From Pseudomonadota bacterium (GTDB taxonomy: Bacteria > Pseudomonadota > Alphaproteobacteria > SP197): a stretch of DNA of 64,000 bases. Where the stretch lies: NCBI GenBank assembly GCA_039028155.1, contig JBCCIS010000015.1:1-64000 (forward strand), in the 5' to 3' direction. Each line of letters begins with the position of its first letter. The first letter of the stretch is position 1. Both the position numbers and the translations under genes were made by a program. The notes under the pieces are model-generated. The model had not been told where the DNA came from and searched no databases. It worked only from the letters and a program-made list of their open reading frames with translations. This document shows positions 26,883 through 35,481 of the stretch, piece after piece.

Positions 26883-27491
26883 ATGGTTCAACTGCTGATG
26901 CCCCAGGCGACCGCTGTCTGGTTGGTCGACAACACAACCCTGTCCTTCGGGCAGATCGCCGATTTCTGCGGCATGCACCCGCTGGAAATCCAGGCGATCG
27001 CCGATGGCGAGGTGGCCGTCAACATCGTCGGCCAGGACCCTGTGACCGGCGGCCAGTTGACGCCGGAAGAGGTCGAGCGCTGCGAAAAGGACCCCGACGC
27101 GCGCCTTGAGATGCGCCTGCGCGAGGATCTGCCCCAGCCCAAGCAGACCAAGAGCCGCTACACCCCGGTCTCCAAGCGCCAGGACAAGCCCGACGCGATC
27201 GAGTTCCTGGTGCGCCGGTTCCCACAGCTATCCGACGCCCAGATCATGCGCCTGGTCGGCACCACCAAGCAGACCATCAACGCGGTGCGCGAGCACACCC
27301 ACAAGAACAGCGCCAATATCGTGCCCAAGGATCCGGTGCTGCTGGGGCTTTGCACGCGCGACAAGCTGAACACGGAAATTGAGAAGGCGAACGCGAAGGT
27401 CCGGGCCAAGGAATCGGCCATGGAAAAGGCGCGCGCCGAACTGGCCGCCCGCGACGAGGCCGAGATCCAGGCCGGCGACGTTTCGTCCTAG
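26883..27491 (+). CDS. trcR: TrcR/DUF1013 cell-cycle transcriptional regulator
   Basis: 202 residues of the DUF1013 family, conserved in alphaproteobacteria. Markers are MVQLLMPQATAVWLVDNTTLSFGQIADFCGMHPLEIQAIADGE (an HTH-like N-terminus), PDAIEFLVRRFPQLSDAQIMRLVGTTKQTI and an AKESAMEKARAELAA coiled tail. In Sinorhizobium and Brucella this protein has been reported as an essential cell-cycle regulator acting with RNA polymerase. A strong AAGGAGAT lies 5 bases before the ATG. The first SABATH-like gene starts 13 bases after its stop, so they probably share a transcript. Confidence 0.9.
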   Translation: MVQLLMPQATAVWLVDNTTLSFGQIADFCGMHPLEIQAIADGEVAVNIVGQDPVTGGQLTPEEVERCEKDPDARLEMRLREDLPQPKQTKSRYTPVSKRQDKPDAIEFLVRRFPQLSDAQIMRLVGTTKQTINAVREHTHKNSANIVPKDPVLLGLCTRDKLNTEIEKANAKVRAKESAMEKARAELAARDEAEIQAGDVSS

Positions 27492-27504: not shown

Positions 27505-28614
27505 ATGGCCGGCCCAGAAAAGGACGGCCAGGCCCCTGCCACCGACGGCATGGGCGGCAGGGGTTACTACGACAGCCATTCCGGTGCACAAAAGGATGGT
27601 ATCCGCAGCCAGGAGGCGCGGCTGCGTGATGCCGCGCGCGCGCTTGACCTGAGCGGCCCGGAGCTGCGCATCATCGACTACGGCTGCGGGCCCGGTCGCA
27701 ATTCCATGACCGCGTTTCACACAGTGCTGGACGAAGTGCGCCAACGCCGGCCCGATATCGCGGTCGTCGCCATGCACAACGATCAGATCGGCAACGACTG
27801 GAACGACCTCTTCGCCAACGTGCGCGGCCCCGACGGTTACCTCAACGACATCGAGAGCATTCGCGTCGAGGCGGCCGTTGGCAGTTTCTTTGGTCCCGTC
27901 GCCAGCGCGGGCGTCATCGACTTCGCCATGTCGTTCGCGGCGGCCCACTGGCTGGCGAGCGCGGTGCGCATGCCGTCGCCCGGCAGCTTGTTCTATTGCG
28001 ATCTGCCGGAACCGGCGAAAAGCGAGATCGCGGCCATGGCGGCGCGCGACTGGACGGCGTTTGTGACGCAGCGCGCCCGCGAAATGAAACCGGGCGCCAT
28101 GCTGGTCATGGATGTGTTGTCGGCCGTTCCCGATGCCGGCGACCCAAGCGGCGTGGCGGCGGCGGCTGCCGGACTCTATCGCGCCATAGGAGCGGTCGCC
28201 GAAGGCCTCGCCGATGACGGTCAGATCGCCAAAGACGTGCTCGATGACTTCATCTTCCCTGTCTACTTTCCCCTTTCCGACGAGATCGCTGCACCGCTGG
28301 AACGAGACGGCACACTGAAAGCCGCCTTCGAGGTCTTGGAACTTGCCAACGAGCTCTTGCCGATGCCGATAGAAGAGGCGTTGAAAAAGACAGGCGACGC
28401 GACGGCCTATGCCAAGGCTTATGTCGGGTTCGCCCGCGCGTTCTCTGAAGCGACGCTGACAGCGGGCCTGTTCACGCCGTCGACGTCGAATGAGGCGGAG
28501 GCGAAGGCACTGGCCGATGTCTTTTACGAGAGGCTCGAAACGCTGTTCGCGAATGAACCGGATAAACACGGCTTCGCCCACCGCGTCGCCACCTTGGTGA
28601 TGAGGCGACGATGA
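27505..28614 (+). CDS. SABATH-like SAM-dependent carboxyl methyltransferase, copy 1
   Basis: 369 residues from the ATG at 27505. It reads like the plant SABATH fold (salicylate/jasmonate/IAA methyltransferases, Pfam Methyltransf_7). M16-G-G-x-G20 and YYDSHSxxQ29 match MxGGxGxxSYAxNSxxQ. Motif I is IDYGCGPGRNSM (57-68). HNDQIGNDWNDLF (91-103) matches the NDLPxNDFNxLF block, GSFF (126-129) follows, and AHWL (147-150) matches the substrate-clamping SLHWLS. FIFPVYFP matches the C-terminal FNxPxYxPS. These enzymes methylate a carboxylate using S-adenosylmethionine. The substrate is unknown. It overlaps copy 2 by 4 bases. Confidence 0.85.
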   Translation: MAGPEKDGQAPATDGMGGRGYYDSHSGAQKDGIRSQEARLRDAARALDLSGPELRIIDYGCGPGRNSMTAFHTVLDEVRQRRPDIAVVAMHNDQIGNDWNDLFANVRGPDGYLNDIESIRVEAAVGSFFGPVASAGVIDFAMSFAAAHWLASAVRMPSPGSLFYCDLPEPAKSEIAAMAARDWTAFVTQRAREMKPGAMLVMDVLSAVPDAGDPSGVAAAAAGLYRAIGAVAEGLADDGQIAKDVLDDFIFPVYFPLSDEIAAPLERDGTLKAAFEVLELANELLPMPIEEALKKTGDATAYAKAYVGFARAFSEATLTAGLFTPSTSNEAEAKALADVFYERLETLFANEPDKHGFAHRVATLVMRRR

Positions 28615-29726
28615 CATCAAACGGCCCTGGGAACGATCGCGACGACCCGGCGACCGAAGGCATGGGCGGCAGCGGATACTACGACAACCATTCGCAGGTC
28701 CAGCGCAGCACCGTCGTCGGCCAAGCCGAGCGTCTGCGTAACGCGGTGCGCCACCTGGACCTGACCACCGATGAGCTGCGTGTCATCGACTATGGCTGCG
28801 GTCCCGGCCGGAATTCGATGGCCGCCTTCCACACCGTGTTCGAGGAAGTCGGCAAGCAACGGCCGGACATGCCGCTTGTCGCCGTGCACAACGATCAGTT
28901 CGGCAACGACTGGAACGATCTCTTCGCGAACATTCGCGGACCCGGCGGCTATCTGAGTGACTTTACCACGACCCGCGTCGAGGCGTCCGTCGAGAGCTTC
29001 TACGAACCCGTGGCATGCGCCGGCACCATTGACCTCGGCATGTCGTTCATGTCGGTGCACTGGCTTAACGGCGCCGTCCACATGCCCTCGCCCGGCACCT
29101 TGTTCTTTTGCGATCTCGACGAACCCGCACGCCACGAACTTGCCGTCCGCGCGGCGCAAGACTGGACGAGATTCTTTGCCGCACGCGCTGGCGAGTTGCG
29201 ATCCGGCGGATGGCTGGTTGTCGAGACGCTGTCATCGGTCCCGGATACCGATGATCCCAGCGGTGTGTTAGCGGCGGGACGTGGGAACTATCGCGCCTGC
29301 TTCCGGGTTGCCGAAGCGATGGCGAATGAGGGACTAATCAAGAAAGAGCTGCTCGATCACTATGTCTTTCCCGTTTACTTCCGTGATGAGCACGAAGCCC
29401 GCGGGCCGTTTGATCCAGGCGGCGCGCTTCAAGATGCGTTCGAGATCGTCGAGGTCGTGAATGAGCGCTATCCGACCCCGTTCGAAGAGACCTTCAAGCA
29501 GGACGGCGATGCGACGGCCTACGCGGCGGCTTATGTCGGCTACGTTCGCGCCTATTCGGAGTCGACCATGCGTAGCGGTCTGTTCGAGGGATCGGCGGGC
29601 AACGCCGAGGAGGTCAATGTTGTGACGGACACATTCTACGATCGTCTTGAACAGCTCTACCGCGACGAACCGTTGCGCCACCCGTCGGAAACCCAATCGA
29701 TGACCGTGGTGCTGAAGCGGCGATGA
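28611..29726 (+). CDS. SABATH-like SAM-dependent carboxyl methyltransferase, copy 2
   Basis: 371 residues, clearly paralogous to its neighbours over its whole length. Motifs are GMGGSGYYDNHSQVQ near residue 17-31, VIDYGCGPGRNSM near 58-70, VHNDQFGNDWNDLF, ESFYEPVA in place of the GSFF segment, and SVHWLNGAVHMP. FVFPVYF-type YVFPVYFRDEHEA supplies the late acidic residue. The difference at the GSFF segment (ESFY) and in the HWL flank suggests a different pocket. Start and stop overlap the flanking copies by ATGA. Confidence 0.85.
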   Translation: MTSNGPGNDRDDPATEGMGGSGYYDNHSQVQRSTVVGQAERLRNAVRHLDLTTDELRVIDYGCGPGRNSMAAFHTVFEEVGKQRPDMPLVAVHNDQFGNDWNDLFANIRGPGGYLSDFTTTRVEASVESFYEPVACAGTIDLGMSFMSVHWLNGAVHMPSPGTLFFCDLDEPARHELAVRAAQDWTRFFAARAGELRSGGWLVVETLSSVPDTDDPSGVLAAGRGNYRACFRVAEAMANEGLIKKELLDHYVFPVYFRDEHEARGPFDPGGALQDAFEIVEVVNERYPTPFEETFKQDGDATAYAAAYVGYVRAYSESTMRSGLFEGSAGNAEEVNVVTDTFYDRLEQLYRDEPLRHPSETQSMTVVLKRR

Positions 29727-30826
29727 CGGCAAACGACCCCGGCAGCAAGGCCACCGACGGCATGGGCGGTGAAGGCTATTACGACAGCCATTCCGCGATC
29801 CAGGGAAACGCCGTGGAGCAACAGGCCGCACGCCTGCGCCGCGCGGTTCAGGCGCTCGACAGGGGAAGGCAAGAGATCACCGTCATCGACTATGGCTGCG
29901 GCCCCGGACGCAACTCGATGGCGGCGTTTCGTGCCGTGCTCGACGAGGTGCGCAAGCACCATGGCGACCTCCCCATCGTCGCCGTCCACAACGATCAGAT
30001 CAGCAACGACTGGAACGACCTCGTCGCGAACATTCAGGGGCCGGACGGTTACCTGAACGACGTCGACGGCGTGCGTGTCGTCGTGTCGGCCGGCAGCTTC
30101 TTCGATACCGTCGCCAGCCCGGCAACCATCGATCTCGGCATGTCGTTCATGGCGTCCCACTGGCTCGACGGCGCAACCAGTATCATCTCGCCGGATACGC
30201 TGTTCTTCGCCGACATGACAGGACCGGCGCGCGACGAGATCGCCGCCATCGCCGACGATCACTGGACACGCTTCATGCGCAGGCGCGCCCGCGAAGTGCG
30301 GCCCGGCGGCTGGCTTGTGTTCGAAGCGATGTCGTCGATCAAGGATCCGGACGACCGCAGCGGGCTCGCCGCCGGCGGTCACCGTCTCTACCGCGCCTTC
30401 TGGCAAATCGCCGACGGCATGGTCGACGAGGGACTTGTCGAGCGCGCCCACCTCGACGCTTTCGTCTTCCCGGTCTATTTCCGCGAACTCCACGAGATCC
30501 GCGCGCCGCTGGAGCGCGAGGACGATCTGAAGGCCGCGTTCGAGATCGTCGAACTCGAAAACGAGCTGATCCCCAACCCTTATGTGGAGGCCTGGCGCCG
30601 CGACGGTGACGATACGGTCTACGCCAAAGCCTACGCCGCCTTCGCGCGCGGCTTTTCGGAGTCCGCTTTCCGCAACGGCCTGTTCAATCTGTCGGCCACC
30701 GAAGACAACGGTGCCGACGCGTTGACCGAGACATTCTACGCGCGCCTCGAAGACCTGTTCCGTACCGAACCCGACGACCACATCTTCGACAACCACTCGA
30801 TGACGCTGGTTGTCAGGCGCCGTTGA
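29723..30826 (+). CDS. SABATH-like SAM-dependent carboxyl methyltransferase, copy 3
   Basis: 367 residues, third paralog of the tandem set. Motifs are GMGGEGYYDSHSAIQ near 13-27, VIDYGCGPGRNSM near 54-66, VHNDQISNDWNDLV, AGSFFDTVA, ASHWLDGAT and FVFPVYFRELHEI. The asparagine-aspartate block ends in Val rather than Phe. It overlaps the convergent MBL-fold gene by 14 bases (30813-30826). All three share the same layout, so in-place duplication is the simplest origin; divergence seems substantial. Confidence 0.85.
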   Translation: MTANDPGSKATDGMGGEGYYDSHSAIQGNAVEQQAARLRRAVQALDRGRQEITVIDYGCGPGRNSMAAFRAVLDEVRKHHGDLPIVAVHNDQISNDWNDLVANIQGPDGYLNDVDGVRVVVSAGSFFDTVASPATIDLGMSFMASHWLDGATSIISPDTLFFADMTGPARDEIAAIADDHWTRFMRRRAREVRPGGWLVFEAMSSIKDPDDRSGLAAGGHRLYRAFWQIADGMVDEGLVERAHLDAFVFPVYFRELHEIRAPLEREDDLKAAFEIVELENELIPNPYVEAWRRDGDDTVYAKAYAAFARGFSESAFRNGLFNLSATEDNGADALTETFYARLEDLFRTEPDDHIFDNHSMTLVVRRR

Positions 30827-34744: not shown

Positions 34745-34887
34745 CGTCGGGTTTGACGTTTGGTGCGGATCGTTCGGGTTCGCGCTATAACCCGGCTTGC
34801 GGACACGGCAGGCTCCGCGTCGCTGGGAAGAAGATCATCGTCGGCTACAAAATCTCCGACACCTTCGGTCTGCGTTTTGCGGCCGTT

Positions 34888-35481
34888 GTGTCGATCATCG
34901 CGAGTTTCTACCGAACGGAGGCGCGTAAGGGCGGGCCGACGGCCGACATGCTGAACGATGTCGCGCACGAGCTTGAAAACCTGCCGGCGCCGGAACCGCC
35001 CGAACCATCCCGCCTGCCCGGCGCGACACACTTGGCGTCCGCCCTGCCGGAAGCGTTGAACGGTCCGATGGCCTCGGTCGTCCATGGCTTCATGGCGATC
35101 GAACCGGAAAGCCCGTGGATCCAGACGGAGCACTATCGCGCGTCCCTGGGCGACGACTATATGGACAACTACGGCTACGTCACCCTGGTCGGCGACCGCG
35201 CGATCCTGAAGCACGACCGCATTGCCTGCGGCTTCTTCGTCATCGGTCCGGGACGTCATTATCCCGAGCACCACCACGAGGCCGAGGAGATCTATCACCC
35301 GCTCTCCGGCGACACGCTGTGGAGTCAAAATGGGGACCCCGGCACGCCGCGCGCCATCGGCGAGGCCGTGCATAATCCGCCATGGCTGCGCCACGAGATG
35401 ACGACGCGCGAAACGCCACTGTTCGCGCTCTACTGCTGGCGCGGCCGCGTGGTGAACCAGGCGCAATTGACGAACCCCTGA
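34888..35481 (+). CDS. DMSP-lyase-family cupin (DddL/DddQ-like)
   Basis: 197 residues from GTG at 34888; an ATG at 34948 gives 177 residues, and the true start is uncertain. The cupin core is GRHYPEHHHEAEEIYHPLSG, with the Zn/Fe ligands expected as the His cluster (124-130), Glu, Tyr136 and a late His in NPPWLRHEM (169). The closing ETPLFALYCWRGR resembles the DMSP_lyase family, which cleaves dimethylsulfoniopropionate to DMS and acrylate. A quercetinase-like cupin is the alternative. It is downstream of GNAT-EamA and 22 bases before the hydrolase. A TATAAC at 34786-34791 may be its -10. Confidence 0.65.
   Translation: MSIIASFYRTEARKGGPTADMLNDVAHELENLPAPEPPEPSRLPGATHLASALPEALNGPMASVVHGFMAIEPESPWIQTEHYRASLGDDYMDNYGYVTLVGDRAILKHDRIACGFFVIGPGRHYPEHHHEAEEIYHPLSGDTLWSQNGDPGTPRAIGEAVHNPPWLRHEMTTRETPLFALYCWRGRVVNQAQLTNP

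Follow-up and report, generated by a model that had tools for sequence, protein, structure and literature searches.

Downstream of trcR, in the 64,000-nucleotide stretch of alphaproteobacterial DNA analysed here (the window), lie three tandem paralogous genes that raise the question of what they methylate and whether they do so on one substrate or on several. The preliminary description assigned them to the SABATH family, which is best known from plants and whose members convert small acids to methyl esters. The run consists of the following genes:

26883..27491, + strand: trcR, 13 bases upstream of copy 1 (PF06242, E 4.4e-57)
27505..28614, + strand: SABATH paralog 1, 369 aa (PF03492, E 2.5e-24, 86.5 bits)
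28611..29726, + strand: SABATH paralog 2, 371 aa (PF03492, E 8.2e-25, 88.1 bits)
29723..30826, + strand: SABATH paralog 3, 367 aa (PF03492, E 1e-25, 91.0 bits)

The coordinates, the protein lengths, both ATGA overlaps and the distance of 13 bases from the trcR stop had all been given exactly, the identity of trcR is upheld by its match to the Pfam TrcR model, and all three SABATH frames are intact. The motifs IDYGCGPGRNSM, NDWNDL, G/ESF(F/Y), HWL and FPVYF are found as listed, but the first motif, misdescribed as M-x-G-G, reads M-G-G-x-G-Y-Y-D-x-H-S-x-x-Q in the proteins. The catalytic motifs are common to all copies; copy 1 shares 56% identity with copy 2 and 54% with copy 3, and copies 1 and 2 are each about 54% identical to copy 3. 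With family matches at E about 1e-24 or better, and with the three genes standing in the same order in another species, the triad is no chance pattern. Taking as established the family, the fold of copy 3, the anchor residues, the three conserved and separate lineages and the divergence of the pockets, each set out below, we consider it likely that the locus encodes three anciently diverged SABATH carboxyl methyltransferases in a tight run, acting on related but different acids.

The family assignment is solid. Whole-protein matches to PF03492 (Methyltransf_7, the SABATH model) lie above its curated cut-off of 29.8 bits in all three copies, and the predicted fold of copy 3 includes the cap, so that both tests named in the preliminary description speak for membership; NCBIfam holds no model for the three proteins. 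An AlphaFold2 model was obtained for copy 3 alone, built from ten relatives, with a mean pLDDT of 65.9 and a pTM of 0.65, and with pLDDT below 50 at the N-terminus, in the Trp-bearing stretch and in parts of the active site. In this predicted model of moderate confidence, residues 9-367 align with SABATH structures over a Rossmann methyltransferase fold and a helical cap. The best Foldseek match is FAMT of Mycobacterium marinum (E 2.7e-18), the top matches all being SABATH entries, and VIA-align gives FAMT a Z of 29.2 (339 residues, rmsd 3.2) and SAMT of Clarkia breweri a Z of 25.6; the structure comparison places 13 SABATH entries on top (Z 23.9-29.2), and the best structure from outside the family is histamine methyltransferase (Z 16.4). 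By sequence the best PDB match is again FAMT (5f2k; E 4.6e-24 for copy 2 and 1.3e-16 for copy 3), followed by geniposidic acid, salicylic acid and tea purine methyltransferases. The statement that such enzymes are known mainly from plants is true of what has been published, but it is a bacterium that supplies the closest solved relative; the proteins are assigned here to the SABATH family at large and not to its plant carboxyl group. A recent transfer from plants was considered and rejected, since the proteins share about 20% identity with plant enzymes and are no closer to these than they are to FAMT.

The prominence of FAMT raises the possibility that all three proteins are FAMT-like enzymes on medium-chain or 3-hydroxy fatty acids that differ only in chain length, FAMT being the best solved relative by both sequence and fold and accepting C8-C12 acids and 3-hydroxyacids (PMC9744835). 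Like the triad, MmFAMT (5f2k/5f2n/5f2o) is a bacterial protein of the same family and fold with Gln and Trp at the anchor positions, but it shares only about 20% identity with the triad, and its Gln154, which precedes the Trp, is replaced by His in the triad. Moreover, MmFAMT is closer to a different alphaproteobacterial clade, clearly separate from the triad in the tree, of which L037 matches the mycobacterial enzyme better (E 1.8e-32) than the triad does. We therefore regard a uniformly FAMT-like function as rather unlikely. This third alphaproteobacterial SABATH clade (L020-L024, L037, L043 and L048) has Ala for the Gln anchor and Trp or Tyr at the other anchor position, and carries a TxGAKDVIDG-like sequence instead.

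The triad is present in both species of the genus that were examined and in none of 14 other species of the order, five of which have one distant SABATH member. In the congener the same three genes stand in the same order beside trcR, and the same fourth SABATH gene is present; in the genome of the window this distant gene lies on another contig. Its positions are:

L019:2578-3702 (G000 contig C34): fourth SABATH gene of the genus, of a separate clade
L018:7029-8126: fourth SABATH gene of the genus, of the same separate clade

The fourth-copy clade keeps the Gln anchor and has Phe or Tyr for the Trp (alignment A2). Any match to PF03492 is found in only 13 of 385 alphaproteobacterial genomes sampled, one in each except for the window's own genome, which has four. 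Relatives of the triad elsewhere (L029 to L032, and the contig-end fragment L033) are not in tandem, and a Kiloniellaceae genome and some Rhizobiaceae carry members of a sister group of about 40% identity. The tree joins each of the window copies to its congener ortholog with full support and places the L030-L032 genes with copy 3 (100/99), the position of L029 being less sure (81/87). From this grouping and the ortholog pairing it follows that the duplications predate the genus, and the phylogeny thus indicates that the three copies are anciently diverged and older than the two congener species. Plasmid carriage was considered and set aside, there being only three distant records of at most 29% identity; one distant SABATH-like frame, without an annotated feature, lies at L081:5689-7056 on the Sinorhizobium chiapasense plasmid pSchITTGS70d.

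The way in which the block is inherited bears on a different proposal, namely that the three proteins form one hetero-oligomer or carry out consecutive steps on one poly-acid, rather than serving three separate substrates. In plants, SABATH enzymes such as SAMT form dimers, and the gene order is kept as a block, with ATGA overlaps between the genes in the window. The copy-3 type, however, occurs patchily as a single copy in at least three other alphaproteobacterial genomes, and the congener does not keep the overlap of copies 2 and 3, the two genes there lying about 30 bp apart; joint action of this kind seems doubtful. A transcript shared with trcR likewise lacks support as a conserved feature, about 200 bp lying between trcR and copy 1 in the congener. 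Given the two gaps, neither the link to trcR nor the second overlap is needed, and the adjacency of trcR is probably incidental and trcR itself probably no part of the system. The congener spacer (L028:1215-1413) contains an inverted repeat, G+C-rich and perfect over 8 bp, GCCCCGGC-CGACGA-GCCGGGGC, which no T run accompanies; promoter and terminator scans in both species gave nothing above chance.

For the reading as three separate carboxyl methyltransferases, the relevant residues are those that hold the acceptor. In SAMT, Lys10, Gln25 and Trp151 hydrogen-bond the substrate carboxylate, and Lys10 is reported to be conserved in plant members (PMC13376665). Each of the three copies has equivalents of Gln25 and Trp151, and so has every one of the 12 clade members (alignment A2). 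In the numbering of copy 2 these residues are Gln31 and Trp151, in that of copy 3 Gln27 and Trp147. No Lys is found at or beside the Lys10 position in any of the three copies; with the first motif read as M-G-G-x-G, the Lys that follows Met in the plant enzymes has no counterpart here. Compared with SAMT (1m6e), to which they are 18-21% identical, the three proteins also have equivalents of Asn65 and of the SAM-site residues Ser22, Asp57, Asp98, Ser129 and Phe130, but Leu99 is replaced by Gln in all three, and the pocket residues Tyr147, Met150, Ile225, Trp226, Met308 and Val311 differ. The position of Trp226 is occupied by Tyr; an Arg beside the pocket, taken at one point as a hint of a dicarboxylate substrate, was dropped because it aligns with Gln227, not with Trp226.

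The family name by itself leaves the acceptor atom unfixed, and the enzymes might methylate nitrogen or another non-carboxyl atom, as the caffeine-pathway members do; the N-methyltransferases of tea and yerba mate come almost as close in sequence and in fold. The tea theacrine and theobromine enzymes CkTcS (6lyh) and CkTbS (6lyi) have the SABATH fold, SAM site and HWL motif of the triad, but they act on a purine nitrogen and have Thr in place of the anchoring Gln, a residue that SAMT, FAMT and geniposidic acid O-methyltransferase share with every copy here. According to a review, N-methylation is likely a recent change within the family (PMC9822479). Such an activity is therefore improbable. 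Since the tea enzymes lack the Gln, a carboxyl group as the methyl acceptor is the best reading, which the residues support and do not prove. It is proposed that each protein binds SAM in its Rossmann domain and holds a small acid under the helical cap, with the carboxylate fixed by the Gln and Trp equivalent to SAMT Gln25 and Trp151; the methyl group would then pass to a carboxylate oxygen by proximity to yield a methyl ester and SAH, and the acids accepted by the copies would most likely be related and yet different. Translation of the three genes in the window would be coupled through the ATGA overlaps.

The different pocket segments noted in the preliminary description are borne out by the comparison with the congener. 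Differences fixed between the three paralog lineages, in a test with two sequences each for copies 1 and 2 and a pocket list compiled in the course of the analysis from PMC13376665, affect 40 of 366 columns overall and five of 11 mapped pocket columns (P 0.003). These pocket columns correspond to SAMT positions 24, 147, 225, 311 and probably 347, the mapping of the last being uncertain. The pocket of copy 2 is the most distinct, with ESFY, Asn at SAMT Ile225 and Tyr at SAMT Val311. When three such sites were mutated in a plant study, the substrate was not switched (PMC13376665), so the substrate cannot be read off the pocket residues. Congener orthologs are 78-84% identical (copy 1: 80% by blastp and 78% globally), and dN/dS between the congeners is 0.19, 0.19 and 0.16 for copies 1, 2 and 3, compared with 0.04 in trcR and 0.06-0.08 in five neighbouring genes; each copy is under purifying selection, yet its dN/dS is two to three times that of the surroundings. 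Gene conversion between the copies was rejected, no block being found in which paralogs are consistently more alike than orthologs. That the copies are redundant and serve dosage of a single function, as their common family, adjacency and shared catalytic motifs might suggest, is hard to credit given only 54-56% paralog identity, an age beyond that of the two species, no sign of gene conversion and the fixed pocket differences.

The substrates may be guessed, from the relatives, to be medium-chain fatty acids or else hydrophobic or aromatic acids. No neighbour explains the substrate, as had been stated from the start, and no conserved neighbour that could serve as a clue is common to the window and its congener on the one hand and L029-L033 or the sister clade L076-L080 on the other. 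The downstream genes, most of which the congener has kept, encode a metallo-hydrolase (read from the opposite strand), IspA, a regulator that by its sequence is LysR-like, GNAT and EamA proteins, and further on a DMSP-lyase-like cupin, an alpha/beta hydrolase and an AMP-binding enzyme. The cupin is located as follows:

34861-35478, + strand: DMSP-lyase-like cupin (PF16867, E 1.8e-29; best PDB match DMSP lyase 5cu1, E 1.8e-17)

DMSP itself is a carboxylate; the cupin is 4 kb away and outside the same operon-like run.

Bacterial SABATH enzymes are already known; the unusual feature here is that three diverged genes are conserved in tandem and that the active site partly resembles that of plant enzymes. 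As far as the literature and solved structures searched show, little is known of the bacterial members apart from one fatty acid enzyme of mycobacteria, and a search of the literature for studies of bacterial SABATH enzymes other than FAMT turned up nothing relevant. The triad offers three natural variants of one scaffold, in which it can be asked how substrate choice evolves and whether an anchor free of Lys10 works. The bacterium is probably coral-associated, judging from a label, the congener's sample code, that matches a study of the Porites lutea skeleton (PMC9868349). If the substrates were hormone-like acids, this would point to bacterial handling of host signals. A long shot along these lines is a methyl-ester toolkit of three specialised carboxyl methyltransferases that mask or make different signalling acids of algae or corals (auxin-, jasmonate- or salicylate-like ones, or fatty acids), with which a bacterium living among endolithic algae could alter host signals through an active site that is partly plant-like without Lys10. 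Two minor observations concern the downstream region: the cupin, the adjoining alpha/beta hydrolase and the AMP-binding enzyme are 93%, 97% and 93% identical to their congener counterparts, and the congener carries between copy 3 and the metallo-hydrolase a DUF6161 gene (L028:5053-6264) that is absent from the window.
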